Made by a program: the position numbers and the translations under genes. A DNA stretch of 64,000 bases, taken from positions 30,404 through 94,403 of the forward strand of contig JAHBMJ010003070.1 in NCBI GenBank assembly GCA_018398765.1, in the 5' to 3' direction. A model generated the notes under the pieces. It was given only the letters and a program-made list of their open reading frames with translations, did no database searches and was not told where the DNA came from. Below, piece after piece: positions 1-18,932 of this stretch (within the stretch, counting starts at the first letter, position 1; each line of letters opens with the position of its first letter). The stretch comes from Chromera velia. Taxonomy: Eukaryota; Sar; Chromeraceae.

Positions 1-1375
1 ACCATCACGTCGATCAGCACAACAAACGGAGGCTCCAGGACAGATGTGTGGACCGTCAGTCCGGACCTGCCTAACGGGATCTCTCTTGACAGTGCCTCGG
101 GGGTCATCTCGGGTACGCCCACAGAGGTCAGCAGGAGCAAATAGCTGGTTTTGTTTGTTGCTCTTTGAGACACAGTACACTCTGATCGATGCTTGGATGC
201 CGCCAGCATTTCTTTGTGACTTTCCTCGTTCGCATCTGTGCCTGATGGAGCCATGATGGAAGCGCGTGTACGGTACCTCGCTCGCTGTTTTCGTTTCGAG
301 ACCTCGTCCTCTCATTTGGTCTCTTGGGCGTGCAACATGAAGAAATAAATTCCCTTCATTAATTCTTTCTGCAGGCAGTCGCTCTGACGAACTACACAGT
401 GGGGGCACATAACCTTGTGGGAGACTCAACGGTGCGTACGTCGGCCTGTTGACTCTGAAGAAAATTGATTGGGAAAAGATATGTACTTGAAGAAGGGGCA
501 CGTAACGGCCCATTTGAATTTTCAACTGGTGTTCACCTTGCAGTATGCAATAGGGCAGGCAGGCGGGGCGATGAATTCACCCACCGCTTTCGTATCTCTC
601 CCGTGTATTCTCTCTCATTCAGAAAGACTCGCGGCTGTGTTTCCTTAATTTGAGTGTTCATGCTCCCTTGTGATCATCTCATTTGTATATCCTCTTTTTC
701 CTCTATCTCGTTTTCTTTTCCTCTCTATCTTGTCTGTCTGTGTGACAGTGTCTGCCCGTTTCTCTGTCAGCCAGTATGCTTGTCTGTCTGCGGGTATCGC
801 TCACTGGGTCCCTTTCTATCTCTCACTGAGAATTTCTCTATCGGTCTGTTTGCAGATTCAGATCGAGTTCGGAGTCTCTTGCAGCGACGGCTACTATTGG
901 AACACAGGCTCTTCTGCCTGTGTGGCGTGCCCTTTGGGAACGTACAGGTAGGTAGAGGGGCTTGGGGATTTCGTAAATAGAGGGGGTTGGAGGACGAAAG
1001 AATATAGCCGTACGAGCAGGCAGCGAGAATGGCTTTTCGAGAGTTTGCTAAAGAGGCGTGGAGAGGATGCCTTGAAGTGAAGTCATACGGACATTCATGC
1101 AGCCTCCCTTTTCTTCTTCTTCTTCTTCTTTAAGGAGCTCATCAGGAAGAAAGGAAAAAACACCTCGTTTATCTCTGAGTCTCTACGATCGTTCGCTGAA
1201 TTTTCCCACAAGACACCATGCAAGATTGTCCATTCCGCTCACGGACCCATTGATACGTCCACTGACCAAATATGCATGCAGAGCTCAGACATCTATGCTA
1301 ATCCATGTTTGTGCGTTCAGATACGTATGTCCGTCCGTCTGTGTGTATATATACATATACATACACACACACACA

Positions 1376-1410
<35 letters not shown>

Positions 1411-3503
1411 GTGTGCGTGTGTGTGTATATATGTGTGTGTGTGTGTGTGTATGTGTGTGTGTACACACAAATGCAGAGCCCAGACGTCCACGACTTTGGA
1501 CTCCTGCACGTCGTGTTCCACCGGCCAGACGACGTCCTCGACAGGGGCCGTCACTTCGGCCTCCTGCGAGTGTGTCAAAGGTGCATGGGCTCAGAGGGGA
1601 ACAAAGGGAAGGGGAGAGAAGGGGACAGTTGCCTTATTCGGGCCTGGTCGACGATCTCCTATGAGCAAAAGCTTCACTCCTTCACTCAGTCGCTAACCAG
1701 AAGATCAACCGGCCACGTCGAGATATGATAAATGATTTTTTCCTGTCATTTGCTACACATGCGTCTTTGTCTGCCCTCTTCTTTCCTGCGTGCTCGTAAG
1801 AGTGTGCGCTCTCGGTGGACACAAACAAAACATTTATGTCACAACAAGCCTAGGTGCTTTACCGAGCATATCTATCACAGTGCATGTATGCTTGTGGATT
1901 CTTCTTTTGCAGGGTACACCCTGGAGTTAGACAGCACCAGCAATGTCTGGACGTGCACCCCCTGCGGGTCTGGGCTCTACAAGGAGGCTGCTGGAGACAC
2001 ACCGTGCTCAGGGAGGTGCATGACTAACGGGCAGACGGCGGGGGGAGCCATCAGTCTGAGGCAGTGCTCGTGCATGCAAAACTACTACCTCAAATCGGGT
2101 GCGTTGATTTGGTGAACAAAATTTTTTATGTATAACCACAATCACATACGTGCATACATACGTAGATACATCCATAAGCAGAAGAAGACAGTAGCAGACT
2201 TATCAATGCCTCTCGGTCCGGACAACACAAGAAGGAGAAAGCAGTAGAGAAGGACCGAAAAATCCGATCATTTGTCGTGCAGGAAGAAAGAGGTAGAAGA
2301 AAAGAAAAAAGGAAGAGAGCAAGCGTCGTGTTTCTTTAAATGAACAGCTGCAATAATCAGTCCTACGTTTGTCTGATGGTCTCCTTCCTCTCTGGTTGTC
2401 GGCTGTGAAGGATGAGAAGAAGCTTATTACATTTCAGTTTGTTAGCTGTTGGTTGATCCAAGCCCCCGATTTATGACGAGCGCTTTCTCTATATATTTTG
2501 TGAAAGAAAGTATCAATTGATGATCATTCCCCTTAATTAACAGGTCCCGACTACACTGAATTCTGGGTGGGCGCTTCCTGCGAGGCCTGTCCCACAGGTG
2601 CTGTCTGTGCGGGGGGCTTCTCGAACGACACCCTGGCCAAGTTGGAGGCAGACGGGGACTACGTGGAGGTACGTGAGTGAGTGCGTGGGCATGCGGGTAG
2701 ACACTCTTGATCTCATACAAGATCCCGTTGGGTCTATCCGACGCACATGCAGCCGGGTCATTCTTCATACGGGCTGACTGTTGTTTGAATCTATCTACAT
2801 CGTTTGATTTCTGGGGTCTGTCTGCCCCCTGAACCAGGCCTTTCTTGTGCGGTTTCAAAGGGTCCATAAATCCGTCCAGAAATGTGGGTGGAGCACGCTG
2901 AAGAACCACAATAACCGTATTCTTTCAAGAAAAAAAAGGACGGCAACTCCCGCTTACATAGAGTAGGGTGCAAATGAGCCTCGGGGCCGCTCTCACCCTT
3001 ACTTCACAATAAATTACGAGGTTAGATGTCTCCCTCTAAATCCCTTCTGATTGACGGATTGATGCCACTGCAGATCTCTGCCGCCGATCACATGCTGCCC
3101 GAACCCATAGAAGGTTACTACCGTCTTGGGGAAAACGCCACAGACATGGTGTTTGACATCAACAACGCAGCCATCTGGCCCTGCTATGTCCAAAGAGCCT
3201 GCCTGGCAGGAGCAGACAATCTGTGCCACTCGAACAACGACGGGGTCAGTCAGTCAGAGAGCATACGTATGTCTTGTCTATCTTCCACGAGGGGTGGCTT
3301 TCTGTCTATTCGTCTCGCCCTTCATCTGTCTAATCTCCCTGCCGTCCTGCATTCTGTCTACACATACACTCGCATTTTCTTATGTGTGTGTATTCATCTT
3401 CTCTGCGTCTTGATTACATGTGCAGCCCCTCTGCGACGAGTGCATGCCCGGATTCACGCGGGTCTCTGCAAACAACGTGTGTGCCGTGTGTCCTGCCGGG
3501 ATC
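1..3503 (+). other. Extracellular part: Ig-like (He_PIG) end and Cys-rich repeats
   Basis: The first two exons join as one Ig-like unit: the first has LPNGISLD...SGTPTE and the second continues NYTVGAHNLVGDST, the usual He_PIG (PF05345) pattern of LPxGLxLDxxTGxIxGTPT followed by a YTVxAxN strand. From 856 on, five exons hold Cys pairs of the GCC2/GCC3 or ephrin-receptor-like type: CSDGYYW...CVACPLGTYR, CTSCSTGQT...CECVKG, CTPCGSGLYKEAAGDTPC, CEACPTGAVCAGG and CDECMPGFT...CAVCPAGI. The last pair sits directly before the first membrane helix. The domain calls rest on these spacings. No signal peptide is visible because the N-terminus is missing. Confidence 0.75.
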
Positions 3504-6500
3504 TGGAACCTCCTTTTGGTCCTGTCGATCATCGTCATTTCATTCTTCATCGTCGTCTTCTACGCGCAACTGACTCTACAGGCAGGAACCAACAAGAAAG
3601 CGATGCACGCCATTGTGTTGAAGATTGGAGTCAACTACGTTGCGCTTCTGTCTACGCTGAGTACGTTCGACTACTCCACCCTCGACTGGCCTGATTGGAC
3701 TACAGGGTTGCTCAGCAGCTTCACGGACGCATCGGCAGGGGACCCTTTTTCTCTCCCCGCTTTCGACTGCCTATTCAGGAGCGAACAGAATCCGGTGGGT
3801 GGGTGGGTGTGTTCCAGCGAAGCAAGAGTTTTATGCAGTCCGGTAAGACGGCAAGCAGCGATGAAAGAAGAATGTCTGGATACTACCCAACTCCCTTTTC
3901 CGCTTGCCTGAAAATGCATTTGATCAGCAGCATTCGAGCTGACCGACATACATCCACCATTTGTGTGTGCATTTGCTGACACAATGCAGGGGCGCAAGAA
4001 AAAGAATAACAGGTTGTCATGCAAGCAAGTTGAATGCTCTCCGAATTGTCATAGTTCCTTCCTCTTGCCAAGACCGACATGTGCATTCTATGGCCATCGC
4101 TTGCAGATGAAATTCACCTACGCTTTCAAGCTGTGTCTCACAGAAACAAATCCATGTTCATGCATACACACAGCTAGATTACTGGCATGTCTCTGAGTAT
4201 ATGTGCCTGCAGGTGCCTTTCACCCAGGCATTCCACTACACCAAGCTCTTCATCTTCCTCATGCCGATCGCGTGGCCACTCACTCTAACGGCCCTGATGG
4301 CATTGGTGATCGTGGTCTACAGAAGGATGGTGAGGGTGCGCCTGGAAGAGACGAGACAAATGCTGGAGAGACTCCGAGAGCTTGGACCTCTCTATGGACC
4401 TCTACACAGGTGGGCCCTCTCTTGTCCTCTTCGCTGTTCTCCCGCAGGCTCGGAAGGCTCACGTATATACCGTCATTCTCATGCAAGTACACATAAAATT
4501 GTCTACATGCTCGCAGTCAGACATACGTGAATGTGTGCATGTGAGACCTTTCTGTAAGTCAAGCTTCCTGTGTCAAGTTCTTCTGAAAAGTCTTCTTCTT
4601 TCCCTCCCCCTCTCCTTGTCTCCGTGGGGTGCAGGCGACTTCTGGAGGAGAAGAGAGAGGAGAGGTTCCTCGGTATCTGGGCGGTTTTCTCCCTCAGGGG
4701 CGAGAGGCTGATCGTGCAGGCCAGGAGGTTCATGTCCGACACCATCCCTGTCTACATCGTCACTCTTTTCCTCATGCAGGTGGGTGGCCCGTCATAGCTT
4801 AGAGTTGTTTTGGACGCTCACTGATACGTAGACAAACTTTACAACAGTGACCGCCTTGTTGCTTTTGTTCAATCAGTGTTGCTTCACACCTTTGTGCCAA
4901 CCCGGATGGTTTGTCTACATGTTTGTATCGATCTGCCGGGTTTCACTCTTTTTTGCCTGCCACGTCTGAATGCCTGCCTGCAGAACTCGGTGACCACCCA
5001 CATGGTACAGCTCATCCAGTCAGTCAGTGCGGCATTCATCCTCTCAGTGAATTGATCGACAGTGTTTTCAGTGTCCTATTCTGGAGATGAGAGGAAATAG
5101 AAAGAGAGAGATCCGGGAAGAGAAGAGCAGCCATAAGGCCGGGACATGTGGAGTGAAAGCATCGGTCATCTCCGCTGGTTTTTCTGAACGTACATACAGA
5201 ATGGATCTGCATAGACGTACTATTCACGAACTCCTGTGTGCACGTGGCCTGTACTTTCTGCACCTGGCATCGCGGCTTGTCTGTACTATTTTTGCAGATG
5301 TGACTATATCAACAAGGAGAGACGTCTTCGGTACGCGGTGTCTCAGACATGCGACGTCACAGACCCCTTCTACGTGATTGGGTGGATGGGTCTGCTCCTG
5401 TGGTCTATCGGGATCCCGGTGGTTGCCTGCTCCCTTCTCTGGAAGCACCGGAAGGAACTTTGGAAACCGTATGTGAAGAGAAGGTTAGTCGTCCTACACA
5501 TGAAGTGGATTTTGGTGCAGGATATCATGAATGTATCTTCACATGGCTGCATGGGAATGAGTCGGGCCAAAGGAAAACGTCAGACGCTGAAGACCGAAGG
5601 CAAGAAAGGGTATAAGTTGGTTTTTCGGTTCTCTTCTGTTTCTGTGCACAGGTGGTTTTGTGCAGCGCAATCCAGTGTGGGCTCAGGCTCCGTTTCTCTT
5701 GAGCTCGCATGCAGGTACGGCTTCTTGACAAACGGGTACGACGAAGGCTTCTGGTTCTGGGAGTCGGTGGTGACTGTGCGGCGTGTGTTGATCGTCATTG
5801 CTGCCTCCTTCTTCGTCGGCACCCGCACGAACATCCGTCTGCTGTTCATGATCATTGTGGCAACAGTCGCACTCGCCCTGCAGCTGACGTGCCAGCCGTT
5901 CGACAACCGAAACGGACAAATCCTCAACAGACTCGAGGATCGGGCCCTGTACTCGTGGACATTCACGGTCCGTCGGTCAATATAGGGAGGACAGATTGAG
6001 CAAGGGGATGGGTCTCACTCAAATAGAAGCGCGTTTTCTTCTCCCTCTGCACTTGGGTCTCACGTATGTGTTTGTTTCTGTGTCCGTGCGTGTTTTTAAG
6101 TGCATATTGTGGGTCAATCTCCGTACCTGTTTCTGCAGTTGATTTTGTTCGCAATGATTTTCATTTTCAACGTGGGGTCCTGGTTTAACACCCTTCTGGT
6201 GATCATCATCGTGATCCTCCAACTGTCCTTCCTTGGGCTCTTCGCACATCACTTCTACAGGTGGGAGAGGTTGTGTGTAGATGCATCGCTTTGTTTCTCT
6301 CTTTGAGTTGACTGAATGGAGACTCTTCCAGGACTTTCTGAAAGAAGTGTGTGGAACCCTTAATTTCAACATGGTGCAAACATAGCTAGCTTTGTTCTCT
6401 TTCTTTCATCGTCTGTGAAGAAAGGAAATTGTATCTGCCTTTTGCCTCTTCTGCCTCCCCTGTTTCATGCATCAGACTCTGTAACTCACTTGCCTGTCAG

Positions 6501-12888: not shown

Positions 12889-13784
12889 TCGATCATTGAC
12901 GAATGAAGGGTCTCTAGCTTTTCGTGGGAAAGGGTCTTGGAGGAAAGGAGAAAGCAAAGCTGCTGATCTGTTCCAGGTGGTACTTTAAGACCTTCAGACC
13001 AGAAGGTTGAGGAGGAGATTTTGTAGCGTGCATTTGTTGATGGATGCCAGTGGGGAACGAGGAAAGGTAGCCAGAAGGTCGGTCGATCGAATGTTGCCAC
13101 AAGAGAACTCGCCGGCCTCAGGCTGATACAAACAGGCGAAGTCGTTGCTGCTGTAAATACCGTCTGCTCGGACTTTGCCCAGCTTAACCAGTGAATGTTA
13201 CTGGCTTCTAGACTGGCTTGCAATAAGCAAGATTAAGATTAAGGTTTTGAATATACAATATACATTGATTGAACTTCGATCCACAAAGTGATTGAAAGCG
13301 ATTATCCCTTACATGCTAAGGCATTTTTGCACTAAAACGTTTAATTTGTAAGATCCTAGGTAAGATTGGCCTATGTATAGAAAAATTAATGATTAAATTG
13401 AATTGATCATATATACACTTAGTAACCGTTCTTTCTTAATTAAGAATTTTTTTTTTATACAAACTTGAATGGCCCGTGTGTGTATATGTGTGCAGCCATA
13501 TTTTTTTGAATTTTTGATAGTGAGTAATTAAAGTTCAAGTTTTAAATGTTTTTGCTCCAACAACTCAAACTAGAACTCAAAATCTTCAAATCACTGGCCC
13601 AGAGTTTTTAAGATAACGCTAATCTAGATGCTAATTTAATATGCCGCTACTACTATTGAGCTAAGACTAGTCAAATAGTGTTAAACCTTTGTGTAAACAT
13701 AGTTTTACTTTAAACAATAAATTAAAGAAGTAAAAAAAAAAAATGGAAATTGGATTTCCAATTAAAATCCAATTAATTTTCCAT
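12889..13784. other. AT-rich intergenic stretch
   Basis: This is the 3' flank of the receptor-like gene. Composition shifts sharply to AT-rich after about 13200. No gene, RNA or clear repeat boundary was seen up to the element starting at 13793. Confidence 0.6.
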
Positions 13785-14497
13785 TTCAAAGCCTAGGGTT
13801 GGACACTAAAGTTTTAAAGTTTTTTTTTGTTAAAGTTTTTTTTTTGCCCTTTAGACTTTATTTTAAAAAAATATTTTTCAATCATTTTTTGAGTAGATCG
13901 TTAATTAAGTCAGTCATAAGTTAGACTCATAACTAAACTAATCAACTAGCCTACATAGAAGATGGCACAAGCTTAGTCTCTTTAAGTTGAAATTTATGTT
14001 CACATTGAAAACAATCATCAGCGAGATCGATCGGATCTAGCATTGGAAGAAAAGTGATCGGATGACATCACGGATCAAAAGTTCGGATGTACTTGCACCG
14101 GGAAGTAAACACTTGCAATCATTAGAATCAATGGATTTCAAATCAGGTATGCAACGCAGGAATTCCCTTTTATCCAGCGACTTGACACAAGAACGCGCCT
14201 AAGAACGCACATAAAAAAAGTCTATGTATGAAGCTATCAAGAGATCGAATTCAAGAATCATGTTCACAGAGTTTGTGCTCGCGACATTCATCAAACACAT
14301 GGCAAGGAGTCCAGCGATTGAGGAGTACTACATAGATCTTCTGCATACGATAGGCGATCAACACAAATGCACACAACATGAACGAACTCGACTTTGCCTT
14401 GTCTACATTTAAAGGCACGAATGATTGCACAAAAAGAGAAGAAGAAAAAAGAGGACAGATGAAAGGGAAACATAATTTGATATCAATTTCTCTTTCC

Positions 14498-15433
14498 TCA
14501 CTCATTATCTGACTCTTCGAGCGCGCGGCGGTTCTTGATACGGTGACGCTTCGGGGCTTGCTCAACTACGTTAGAAGAGACGGCTGGAGAGCGCGAGCGG
14601 CGGCTGGCTGTAGAGTGGGAGTTACGAGGTGCCTCTTCCTCCTCCTCGTCGTTGGATAGCTCGCTGCCCCCCTCGTTGTTGGAGCCCCCCCCCTCGTCGT
14701 TGGAGCCCTCCCCGTCCCCAACATCTGAGTCGGAGTCGACCTGCTCTCCTCGGGCATCCATGTCCTCGAGGACTGCACTAATCCACTTTCCCTCCCCCTC
14801 ACACTCATCTTGGAGAGCCTTCAGCTCGGCTGCTCCATCGTAGTGCTTACTGACTCGGATCTCCAAATCCTCGTCATCATCAGTGGGAACGACATCGGAG
14901 TCGTTGGAGTCATACTGATTGGAGTCGTTCGAGTCCGATGAATCTCCCTCTCCTTAGAGGGTGAGCCACATCCAGCACTTGTCGGTCTTGAGGGACTGCT
15001 TCAAGAGATCGAGCTTCCATTTCCCGGACTCCATCATCGTATAGGCGTACATGTGCGTGGTGGTCCATGGCACACGGAAACGGATGGCAGCATGGTACTT
15101 GTGCCTCTCACACTCGGCCTTGGTGGCGAGCTTAAAATGCTTGAACAGCGCCCACAGGTCTTTGATCGTCATTTTTTTCATTCGTTTGTCCCACTTCACC
15201 TTAGCGTCACTCCTGTCACCCTTCAAAAGGGCGGCCTTCATGGCATTGAAGACGACCTCCCTGATCTGGGCCTCTGTAACCTTCGGCTTCTTTTGTTTGG
15301 AATTCTTTGAGTCGGATGGGTTCGAGCCGGACTCGACCTTGGACTCGTTTGACTTATATTTTATCGTTTCCGTTCTCCAAGGCGCATTGGCGAAGCCACC
15401 GGCCTCAATACAATGGTGGATGCGCTCCTTCAC
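14498..15433 (-). pseudogene. Unknown acidic-tailed protein frame inside the TIR element, one in-frame stop
   Basis: Reading from 15433 to 14498, one frame stays open except for TAA at 14954-14956. Upstream of the stop is a basic region (KQKKPKVTEAQIREVVFNAM, then KMTIKDLWALFKHFKL) ending KTDKCWMWLTL. Downstream the same frame goes on with Asp/Ser-rich DSNDSNQYDSNDSD and Glu runs, and ends TGA near 14498. The first codon of the open stretch is GTG, so the true start is unknown and may lie on a further exon. The interrupted but otherwise clean frame suggests a recently broken gene, or a terminal acidic domain lost by a point mutation. No family recognised. Confidence 0.45.
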
Positions 15434-16580
15434 CGGGGTGGGAAAGCATGAAGAGAAGGGTGACGACGCACCGGGGCAAAAGATTGTAGATCTGCTGAAG
15501 AAAGAAAGAGAGGCGAGTCAGGGTAGAAAAGAAGGTGACGTCACAGAACTTGGTGTATATTCGGAAGATTCTGATGCTAACTCGAACTCTGAAGAAGATG
15601 TGGAGATAGAGGAGGACGCAGACTTGTCTGAGGCTGACTTTAACGAAGGGGAAAATGAATCAGAAGATGAGAGCGGGACGGAAGGTGCAGTGAATGAAGG
15701 CGACAAGAACAAGTATGGGCGCATATTGATTTTCGACACAAATAGAAAACTTTCAAGGGTAGACGTGGTAGTGAATGAGTTTCAAAGGCAGCTCATAGAT
15801 GAGAAAGACGATCCTGCGCTGTAGCAGGCAAAACGACAAAGACAAGAGCGAGTACAGACACAGCTGCTCATTACGCCAGAAGCACCAATGATCACAGAAA
15901 AAACTTTCGTGTGGGTGCGAGTTTTATGAGATGACGTGAGAGAAAAACAGGGAAAAGCAAAGACCAAAGCGAAGGGCAAAGCGAAGGGCAAAGCGAAGGC
16001 CAAAGAACACCCCCCCCCCGCAGCAGCAGCGTTCTCTGAAGACGCTTCTTCGAACCATACAAATCCGACTCACCGTACAGCCGCTATCGTTGCAGCTGCT
16101 GCAATTAGCAAGGCAGCGTCTCCTGATCATGATCGCGGAAAGAAGAGAGGGGGGGAAGCCGAAGGGGCTGATGGCGCTGCGGAACCTAGTGAGAAACATG
16201 AAAACGGTACAGTATGCCTCAAACTAGGGCTGGTTGAGGGCATTTTTACATCATCTGGAACCCGGGTTTTCTCTCCTGTGTACCTAGTAGCCAAAAACGA
16301 GAAATTAACGGTCCGAGTGGTGAGACACATTCGAGACAAAGAGAAGGGTACAGAGGACTTAGAGTTTTTTCAGCACTTTGGGACTACCGAGTGGGTAGAA
16401 GACTTTGAATTGGCAAATATCAAAGATGTTGCGCCAACGTTGGTATACATTGAGAAGAGACCCGGGGGAGTAGTAGTTGCAAGTAGCTGCCACCGTCTGT
16501 TAAGAGAAGTGATTGTTGGAAAAAAAGAAGTGGATTTCTTGGAGAAGGATCCCAGAGGACCAAAGTTACCGGTTGTTTGA
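15410..16580 (+). pseudogene. Unknown element-borne frame, plus strand, two in-frame stops
   Basis: A plus-strand frame rich in Glu, Asp and Ser (SEDSDANSNSEEDVEIEEDA) runs to TAG at 15822-15824. It continues in the same frame to TGA at 15927-15929, then through KAKTKAKGKAKGKAKAK and an Ala-rich linker into a globular-looking C-terminus (for example GTVCLKLGLVEGIFTSSGTR and VRHIRDKEKG), ending TGA at 16578-16580. Its 5' part overlaps the minus-strand frame, so the element's two frames are head to head. Start codon undetermined, because the frame is open back to 15051 on the antisense of the other gene. A short intron could remove the two stops, but no good GT...AG pair stands out. No family recognised. 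Confidence 0.4.
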
Positions 16581-16883
16581 ATTTATATTAACGTTGTTTC
16601 AAGGAATTTTTGTGAGAATTGTAATTAATATAGTAATGCATTACATACATCGTTTTCAAATTTAAAAAACTTTTGCATAACTATAGTATATCTAGTAATT
16701 TATAAAGTATCAACTTTGTCTGCAATAATATAAATGAAACCAACTTCTCTAGCAATGTCTTTTAAATGAGCTTTTGCATGTCTGGTTGCATCTTTACTTT
16801 TAAAGTTTTAAAGTTAAAGTTTAAAGTTTTGCAAGCAAACTATATTATAAAAAAAACTTTAGTTTCCAACCCTAGTTCAAAAC

Positions 16884-17366
16884 GTATATGATTTCCAATT
16901 GGAAAATTGGATTTCCAATTGAAAATCCAAATTTCCAATTGCATGTTTTAAAAGTTAAATGTTTATGTAAAGCTAATTGGTGTTCAGATTTGAAATCTTT
17001 GAGTTTTAAAATCTTTATGCACAAAAATGTAGCTTTGTACTATAAGTTTTTGACATAGACAAAAATCTTTCCAAATTGCTCCAAATTGGGAATTTCGGAT
17101 TCCAAATTCCCAATTAGGCGTTTCAATTGTCCCAATTACTCCCAAATGCGATAGGGATATCACTGAGGTTTGTCATTTTTTATCGATTTTGAGCTAGATT
17201 TTTCCTGAAAGTTTGCAGGAGATAAGAATCCTTGTTGAGTCCTATAGCCTAGGTTGAGTCAGAATCACTGCACAAACTCAGGCAAACCCAGGCAAAAGAA
17301 GTATTCGTTTTGAAACCGTCATGTGGCATGTGGTTTATGCCCAATTCGGTACTCTGATCTATTCTA
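16884..17366. other. AT-rich spacer
   Basis: It contains repeated ATTTCCAATTGGAAA-type palindromic words (16880-16945) that also occur just outside the left end of the TIR element (13741-13785). No gene seen. Confidence 0.5.
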
Positions 17367-17369
17367 ATC

Positions 17370-18383
17370 TCAGAAGCCCAGGTTGAAACACAGCGCTGTC
17401 CCTTCTGTGATGGTCGCAGGCTCCCGATCCACCGTGTCCCCTCCCTCCTTCTCTCCGCCCTCACGCAGTGCTGGAGCTGTCACACCTGGACACCGTCTCG
17501 CCAGCAGTTGAGATAAGCGCTCTGGATCGAAGGGCCCATAAGGGGCGGATGCGGGGTTGGTGTTCATTGTGGCAACCATCACAGAGGCGGGAATAGGGAC
17601 CGACTGACGGCTGACGAATGTGCAGCTGCACTCCGTGCGCCGATCAAATCCCGCAGCCTCGGCAAGATTCCGCATCACGCTCTCCTGGCCAAACTTTTCA
17701 ACAGACAAAACCAGGTCCTCGACTCTTTTGACCTTGCCGCTGTCGACGGCTGCGTGCTTCATCATCTCGATGAAGAAGTTATAGTGCCACGTCACAATGG
17801 TGGCAACACCTGTCGGGGAGAGGATGCGCTTGACTTCCTTCATCGCAGCCACCGGATCATCAGGAAACATGATGCCGAACATGATCACTGCCACGTCCAC
17901 AGTGCCGCTTTCTACGAAATCCAGCTGACACATGTCTGCCACCTTTGTGTCAAATACAAGCTGATCCCCGTGTGCGGCCTTCGCCTTTGTTAGGCGTTCG
18001 CCACTCTCCAGCGTTGACAGCATCCCGGCCGAAATGTCTGTCGCAGTGACTGAAAGGAACAACCCTGGGTCTCCTGCAAACAGAGCATCGATTGCGCAGA
18101 GGGCACCAACGCCCGTACCGGCTGCAATGTCCAGAACACGTACAGGGCGCACCCTTGAACCCAAGCCTGCGGGCCGCTTCTGCTGCAGGAAGGCAGCAAC
18201 GAGCCCGTCTACCGCGGCTTTGGCGAAGAGGTTGGTGAACTCGGCGAAGAACTTTCCGAACAGCGCCGCATGGGTGGACCACGCCTCCCCCTGAGGCTCT
18301 TCCTTCAATTTGGTTCCCTCAGAAACTCGGCCGGACTCAGACTGAGCGGCAGCCTTGACAGAAGAGGAATTAGACGATGACAT
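17370..18383 (-). CDS. Class I SAM-dependent methyltransferase
   Basis: A single uninterrupted exon of 337 codons starts at ATG 18383-18381. Motif I (VRVLDIAAGTGVGAL, residues about 81-95) is the SAM-binding glycine loop. TATDISAGML (about 113-122) carries the acidic residue that binds the ribose. DVAVIMFGIMFPDDPVAAMKEVKRIL followed by SPTG is the motif IV/post-IV region of UbiE/COQ5-like or generic Methyltransf_11/25 enzymes. Substrate cannot be told from the sequence. The N-terminal 30 residues are Ser/Lys/Glu-rich with no clear targeting signal. It is intronless, unlike the exon-rich genes around it, and divergent from the serine acetyltransferase. Confidence 0.85.
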   Translation of the reverse strand: MSSSNSSSVKAAAQSESGRVSEGTKLKEEPQGEAWSTHAALFGKFFAEFTNLFAKAAVDGLVAAFLQQKRPAGLGSRVRPVRVLDIAAGTGVGALCAIDALFAGDPGLFLSVTATDISAGMLSTLESGERLTKAKAAHGDQLVFDTKVADMCQLDFVESGTVDVAVIMFGIMFPDDPVAAMKEVKRILSPTGVATIVTWHYNFFIEMMKHAAVDSGKVKRVEDLVLSVEKFGQESVMRNLAEAAGFDRRTECSCTFVSRQSVPIPASVMVATMNTNPASAPYGPFDPERLSQLLARRCPGVTAPALREGGEKEGGDTVDREPATITEGTALCFNLGF

Positions 18384-18932
18384 GGTGGAGTGAGCGTACG
18401 GTTCAGCAATGGGAGTCTCTGAAGTGAAGTCTGTCCTCGACTAACTGGCAATGGGACGGTTCGGGTGTCAGATCACCGGATTCACCACTGAGATCACACA
18501 ACTGGAACAATAATGCATTGAATGATCCGCGAGCTATAGACGCGGCCATGACGCGGCCCTTTCCACGGAAAACTTGCGCGTGAAATGTCCATAAAAGCGA
18601 AAAAGAGTGCGCGCGTGCCGTCTGCCCTTCGATCTGCCTTCTGCATCCTTCGGCAAGAATGACTCATACAATTGGAATTTGACGTCGTACGTTTCGGGGC
18701 ACGTATATAAACCTATGCCTGGATGCACCCCTTTCCATTCTGTAGTCTGTCACCAGCCCTGAAGCCAAATCGATTCAGATCGCCAAATTGTCCGTTGAAT
18801 CCCCCCACTGCACAGAGCGGGGTACTGTTTTGCCGTCTCCGCGTCTCCGTGAAATCCCCTATTGCACCCATTCTATTTACACCTCCTCTTTGAGTCTTTG
18901 AAGCTGTACGCATTCGAACAAGAGGGGACGAA
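18384..18932. promoter_or_regulatory. Shared divergent intergenic region, TATA-like box on the acetyltransferase side
   Basis: 549 bp separate the two divergent start codons. TATATAA at 18704-18710 lies 220-230 bp before the acetyltransferase ATG and could serve it, with a long 5' leader. No matching element was seen toward the methyltransferase. Bidirectional promoter activity is inference. Confidence 0.4.

Follow-up and report, generated by a model that had tools for sequence, protein, structure and literature searches.

The window (the whole stretch of 64,000 nucleotides of Chromera velia DNA that was analysed) contains a cut-and-paste element which is very probably a non-autonomous, internally deleted copy, its rightward gene (gene R) being the remnant of a transposase gene that has lost its catalytic core. 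A search for the core in the window element detected none and, judging from its relatives, gene R appears to be the counterpart of the 3' portion of a longer transposase gene; this argues for an internal-deletion derivative and not for a transposase split between two genes. The features of the element and of its target are collected in Table 1.

Table 1. Features of the element and of its insertion site (window positions)
Feature	Position	Strand	Basis or remark
Target repeat, left half (older, dispersed)	13663-13790	+	15 other genomic matches
Left target duplication, TTCAAAGC	13785-13792	+	7/8 against 16876-16883
Cut-and-paste element	13793-16875		inverted ends and 8-bp target duplication
Left terminal inverted repeat, CTAGGGTTGGACACTAAAGTTTT	13793-13815	+	22/23 against right end
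Subterminal AAAGTTTT words, three at the left end	13806-13842	+	word scan
Gene L, leftward, basic then acidic protein	15517 to 14501	-	TAG interruption at 14954-14956
Putative junction of the lost transposase core	15430-15450		L020 homology starts at ~15435
Gene R, putative 3' part of a transposase gene	15441-16577	+	homology to L071/L077, weaker to L088
Right terminal inverted repeat	16853-16875	-	pairs with left end; genomic terminus sites
Right target duplication, TTCAAAAC	16876-16883	+	7/8 against 13785-13792; word present in unoccupied L093/L096
Target repeat, right half (tested part)	16884-17003	+	aligned to unoccupied relatives

An insertion into an older dispersed repeat

The two inverted ends agree at 22 of 23 positions (96%), a comparable inverted pair was given by none of 200 dinucleotide shuffles of positions 13400-17300, and the words flanking the ends are identical at seven of eight positions. 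The segment is a genuine insertion. The cut-and-paste element that had been proposed from the letters alone (hereafter the sequence-only reading), with near-perfect ends and a 7/8 duplication, is thus confirmed, and its copies also show 8-bp duplications (see below). The subterminal AAAGTTTT words are possible transposase binding sites.

The target of the element is a TTCCAATT-rich dispersed repeat. Eight of the 15 further genomic matches of the left-flank repeat were fetched: in six (L093, L095, L096, L097, L098 and L100) an element-free alignment extends across the junction for at least 55 bases, and in the other two (L094 and L099) it ends about 7 bases or less from the junction. Since the flank repeat has element-free relatives spanning the junction, the flanking words are not a chance AT-rich similarity, a doubt that the sequence-only reading had itself raised. 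The unoccupied L093 and L096 read TTCAAAAC at the insertion site, so that the left copy of the duplication was most likely mutated after insertion. Beyond the right flank, a 356-codon open frame occupies positions 17370-18440 of the minus strand; we take it to be S-adenosylmethionine methyltransferase-like.

Copies of the element in the host genome

The genome searched was an assembly of 177.8 Mb in 4,040 contigs. The element gave at least 82 matches (40 of 258 candidates scored), and its 22-base terminus, with up to three mismatches, was found at 164 sites (100 of them listed), against none for a reversed-pattern control. The scan for paired ends took in 40 loci (the window, L009-L046 and L076), and found a pair in 32 and none in eight. 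For the paired copies, the match between the two duplication words was 8/8 in 24 cases, 7/8 in five, 6/8 in one, 3/8 in one (L044) and 0/8 in one (L046, a diverged subfamily). The sequence-only reading would have been given up if no second copy had the same ends; such copies exist. Those of the 36 close loci are on the average 95.3% identical to the window copy (pieces of at least 100 bases). As expected of cut-and-paste elements in general, the members of this family (family A) share terminal inverted repeats and have a fixed 8-bp target duplication. As for a DDE transposase of their own, the window copy has the putative 3' remnant only, and the motifs are present in the related L071 (see below).

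Some copies contain other sequences. Two candidates for a full-length copy were rejected: L009 (4,640 bp between ends) is a deletion copy with an unrelated high-copy element inside, and L076 (5,608 bp) is a deletion copy holding other sequence, which includes a frame that we presume to be reverse-transcriptase-like (4110-5120, minus strand). The element nested in L009 (1720-4666) has TTTGATTTGA-type ends and relatives in L047-L054; a search with it gave at least 148 matches (40 of 569 candidates scored). In L013, L027, L042 and L045 the copy sets in abruptly at positions 158, 181, 166 and 187 of the element, respectively, with the matching left end 1.2 to 11.8 kb further outward, and positions 158-187 are perhaps a favoured site of nested insertions. 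L044 carries, at 540-773, a 232-base insert between about 10 repeated element bases (element positions 239-248).

Internal deletions and the missing centre

Compared with the window copy, 36 of the 38 loci fetched have an internal deletion (L019 and L026 show no junction). Their 39 deletion junctions represent 37 distinct pairs, with 268 to 2,332 bases removed, and 36 of the 39 span the centre of the element (element positions 1336-1642). At the junctions the BLAST pieces overlap by 1-11 bases in 27 cases, abut in three and lie 2 to 122 bases apart in nine. The same pattern is familiar from the derivatives of P and Ac/Ds. The middle of the element (15127-15840), used as a query, matched nothing but the window itself, a piece of C3773 and a short stretch of C3322. 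With the middle so rare, no family A copy seen is more complete than that of the window, and none with a complete core was found.

No piece of transposase core from the related elements described below matched the window element (the first motif of L071 was outside the query set): the best match had an E value of 0.031 and lay in a simple stretch, on the strand opposite to gene R. The deletions span the missing core and hence point to it. Of the options put forward in the sequence-only reading, that of a non-autonomous element is supported.

One deletion copy, L020, has other sequence with DxxH-like words just upstream of the point where its homology starts, in the frame of gene R. This 122-bp insert encodes ICLQDPIHLL in that frame and is the sole hint of a core within family A; no second copy of it was found in the genome. 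Among the loci compared, and leaving itself aside, it matched best the DxxH motifs found in L089 and L071 (two hits, E ~1 each). That this match is weak, and that the link with the core runs via relatives, are among the points that weigh against reading the window element as a deletion derivative.

Gene R and the putative transposase core of related elements

Both opposite-strand frames of the sequence-only reading are present, each of them interrupted, and the KAK repeat that it reported in the plus frame is located at 15949-16008. Gene R has in-frame stops at 15822-15824 (TAG) and 15927-15929 (TGA) ahead of its terminal TGA (16578-16580). It matched no Pfam model above the cut-off, and nothing significant was found in the PDB by sequence for gene R, gene L or L089; the single-sequence structure prediction of gene R, with a mean pLDDT of 40.6, was not usable.

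A protein search with the C-terminal part of gene R hit 61 places in the genome, mostly family A copies, the distant ones being 25 to 38% identical. Several of these distant places make up a second family, B (L071, L072, L073, L077 and L078); its ends, CTAGGCATGG, match those of family A, and its duplications are 8/8 in L072 and L078 and 7/8 in L077. For the C-terminal part of gene R, comparison of the family A and family B profiles (hhalign) gave an E value of 3.4e-9, and blastp of gene R against family B gave two collinear stretches (E = 5e-8 and, upstream, 3e-5). The third family, C, is formed by L088 and L090. Against L088, blastp gave E = 0.001 with BLOSUM62 and 0.52 with BLOSUM45, and the local score (z 8.4) was reached by none of 300 shuffles; profile comparison with family C gave E = 0.035 (probability 1.4%), and that of family B with family C gave 0.21. 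The transposase C-terminus of L091 was not matched by gene R (z 0.29), therefore the tail is not common to the whole group. By these comparisons, the gene R link is strong from family A to family B and loses strength outside these two.

What precedes the gene R region is best seen in L071, the longest family B copy, where a plus-strand core lies between a divergent gene and the gene R region. Its motifs are EDATG (899), GSDGD (1232), QDPIH (1384), NFITYN (1863) and SQHCE (1977), so that a D (899), a D (1232), a DxxH (1384) and an E (1977) precede the gene R region on the same strand. About 99 bases of the left end of L071 are missing and stops are present; the motifs lie in different frames, for which we assume exons or frameshifts. 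Segment 1863-2250 has 18 genomic matches, itself included. The motifs and their order recur in L089, with about 27 to 40% identity in the matched pieces, and in L088 core and tail are found in one open frame (989-2329, minus strand). These core motifs recall, as we take it, a group of uncharacterised invertebrate proteins. Because they stand ahead of the gene R region, in an order shared by L071 and L089, L071 is taken as the carrier of a DDE transposase. According to a published account (PMC3706591), transposases of the hAT, Kolobok, P, MuDR and Dada groups have a DxxH motif following their second D. We take the residues assigned by motif in L071 to be catalytic, and gene R to be the 3' part of the transposase gene.

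Comparison of the C-terminus of gene R with the window copy (Nei-Gojobori method) gave dN/dS ratios of 0.12 for L046 (96 codons) and 0.13 for L075 (92 codons). For closer or other copies the ratios were 0.37 (L009), 0.38 (L033), 0.60 (L021), 0.67 (L011), 0.84 (L013) and 0.96 (L017). The low values against the diverged subfamilies L046 and L075 fit a protein maintained by complete relatives, and the higher ones among close copies fit drift once function was lost.

The relatives also bear on the suggestion, made in the sequence-only reading, of a single transposase divided over two head-to-head genes. The catalytic motifs share their strand with gene R in these relatives; no core piece matches the window, save for the simple stretch on the other strand (E = 0.031), and each of the three families has a divergent gene unlike those of the other two. 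Although divergent frames have been retained side by side, in families B and C as well, a divided transposase is hardly credible: gene R would be the 3' part of one gene and gene L a different gene.

Gene L, a divergent second gene

When the host genome was searched with the gene L protein, the protein itself and four further matches in three other loci were found, all in element copies. In two loci, L010 and L074, the codon that takes the place of the window gene's TAG is a sense codon; therefore both minus frames were formerly one gene. Pfam gave no match above the cut-off, the eIF4E model not being reported. Matches to eIF4E in the PDB were weak and non-significant (E values of 0.34 to 1.3), and the eIF4E identity was dropped on that account. 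No significant relative of gene L was found outside the family. In families B and C, too, a divergent frame accompanies the transposase, and comparison of the divergent genes of the three families (the L090 frame in the case of C) gave no match between them. The most suitable view of gene L is that of a separate divergent gene, in the position of an exchangeable second gene.

In family C, the frame adjacent to the transposase (L090: 2124-2738, minus strand; L088: 3932-4270, plus strand) has VPGDGRCLYHCF-like words and weakly resembles the start of an OTU protease. For the L090 frame, the comparison with OTU gave a Pfam E value of 0.23 over 20 residues and a best PDB E value of 0.023; it may, on this weak similarity, encode an OTU-type protease.

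Both genes could instead be host genes captured by a non-autonomous carrier, as the sequence-only reading had considered. Neither protein has a Pfam match above the cut-off, gene L varies between families and its weak eIF4E matches would suit a host origin; but gene R recurs, behind a transposase core, in two element families with like ends, and the genome search with gene L returned element copies only, with no report of the Pfam eIF4E model. Capture of the two genes together is very unlikely. Taken separately, capture of gene R is unlikely and that of gene L is possible.

Comparison with known superfamilies

Duplications of 8 bp are usual for hAT elements, where T is favoured at position 2 and A at position 7. 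hAT elements, Ac/Ds included, resemble the window family by their 8-bp duplications, their short inverted ends with subterminal repeats and their Ds-like deletion derivatives. They differ from it by the dimerisation domain (PF05699), which was not reported in the window frames or in the related transposase pieces and which detects seven other loci in the genome (L081-L087), and by the duplication bias: of 29 duplications, 10 have T at position 2 and 10 have A at position 7, which is no clear hAT-like bias. The related transposase pieces gave no match to any hAT model, hence hAT membership is unsupported.

The element might still have been moved by one of the genome's own hAT transposases, its two genes being carried incidentally. 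The existence of the seven loci, one of which (L087) has an exact 8-bp duplication, and the size of the duplications in the window family would agree with this; however, none of the seven has an end within four mismatches of CTAGGGTTGGACACTAAAG in flanks of about 1.5 kb or less, the bias is unclear, and gene R indicates a different transposase. We regard hAT mobilisation as unlikely, and L081-L087 were rejected as partners for want of matching ends in those flanks. A TIR-like word in L086 and L087 (5 to 6 mismatches) is in the wrong orientation and probably due to chance. L085, L086 and L087 form a hAT family with CATAGTTGCC ends, the duplication of L087 being AATTAAGG.

The hint at hAT that the sequence-only reading drew from the 8-bp duplication loses its force, since P elements share this feature. 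In a published description (PMC7776569), P elements have 8-bp duplications and occur as full-length and smaller, internally deleted copies. P and THAP9-like elements are thus like the window family in both respects; they are unlike it in that its ends start with CTAGG and that it has a second, divergent gene. No P or THAP Pfam model matched the pieces scanned, in which neither a THAP domain nor a GTP-binding insert was seen. The P transposase in the PDB was not matched by the L089 pieces, no full-length protein having been assembled from one open frame.

Dada elements encode a DDE transposase related to those of P and hAT, with a DxxH after the second D, and those with definable termini insert into small RNA genes (PMC3706591). 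The DxxH is common to Dada and the window family, whose duplications differ at every site. The KDZ (Kyakuja-Dileera-Zisupton) elements are large, multi-gene DNA transposons, and Kyakuja has 7-bp duplications, CA..TG termini and no inverted repeats, as stated in its description (PMC12730594). They are like the window family in being large and multi-gene, and Kyakuja is unlike it in lacking inverted repeats. The KDZ model (PF18758) gave no genomic match, but it also detected none of 14 controls.

The window element, families B and C and the loci L089, L091 and L092 might together form an undescribed DDE superfamily, which we propose only tentatively. Its features would be target duplications of 8 bp, CTAGG ends (in A and B), an acidic stretch together with a small conserved domain at the C-terminus of the transposase, and, beside the transposase, a divergent gene that is exchangeable (in family C possibly that of an OTU-type protease). 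Our literature search was directed elsewhere and did not show the window family; we make no claim as to its being unpublished. In viral contigs, 25 stretches fit a pattern and none was confirmed as a relative. To conclude, the window family works like P and hAT elements, and we leave its superfamily unnamed.

A model for the origin of the window element

The complete ancestor, of which no copy was found, would have contained, between CTAGGGTTGG inverted ends, gene L pointing leftward and a transposase gene pointing rightward. A transposase supplied from elsewhere would bind both ends, excise the element and insert it with an 8-bp staggered cut. In other elements, deletion copies are known to arise when the gap left by excision is repaired abortively. 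Here too, repair from a sister copy would often halt early and rejoin at short shared words, and this could have generated the many different internal deletions, which are themselves observed. In the window copy the catalytic core would have gone in this way, leaving gene L and gene R facing apart, both with stop codons, and such copies would be mobile only in trans.

The process is an ordinary one, acting on a little-described element: what appears to be a transposon without a transposase would result from internal deletions that have occurred again and again in a cut-and-paste element. The link of gene R to a transposase that Pfam does not match may open the way to a group of transposases with little description so far, and, as the divergent gene varies, one may ask which advantage a second gene brings to transposons of this type.
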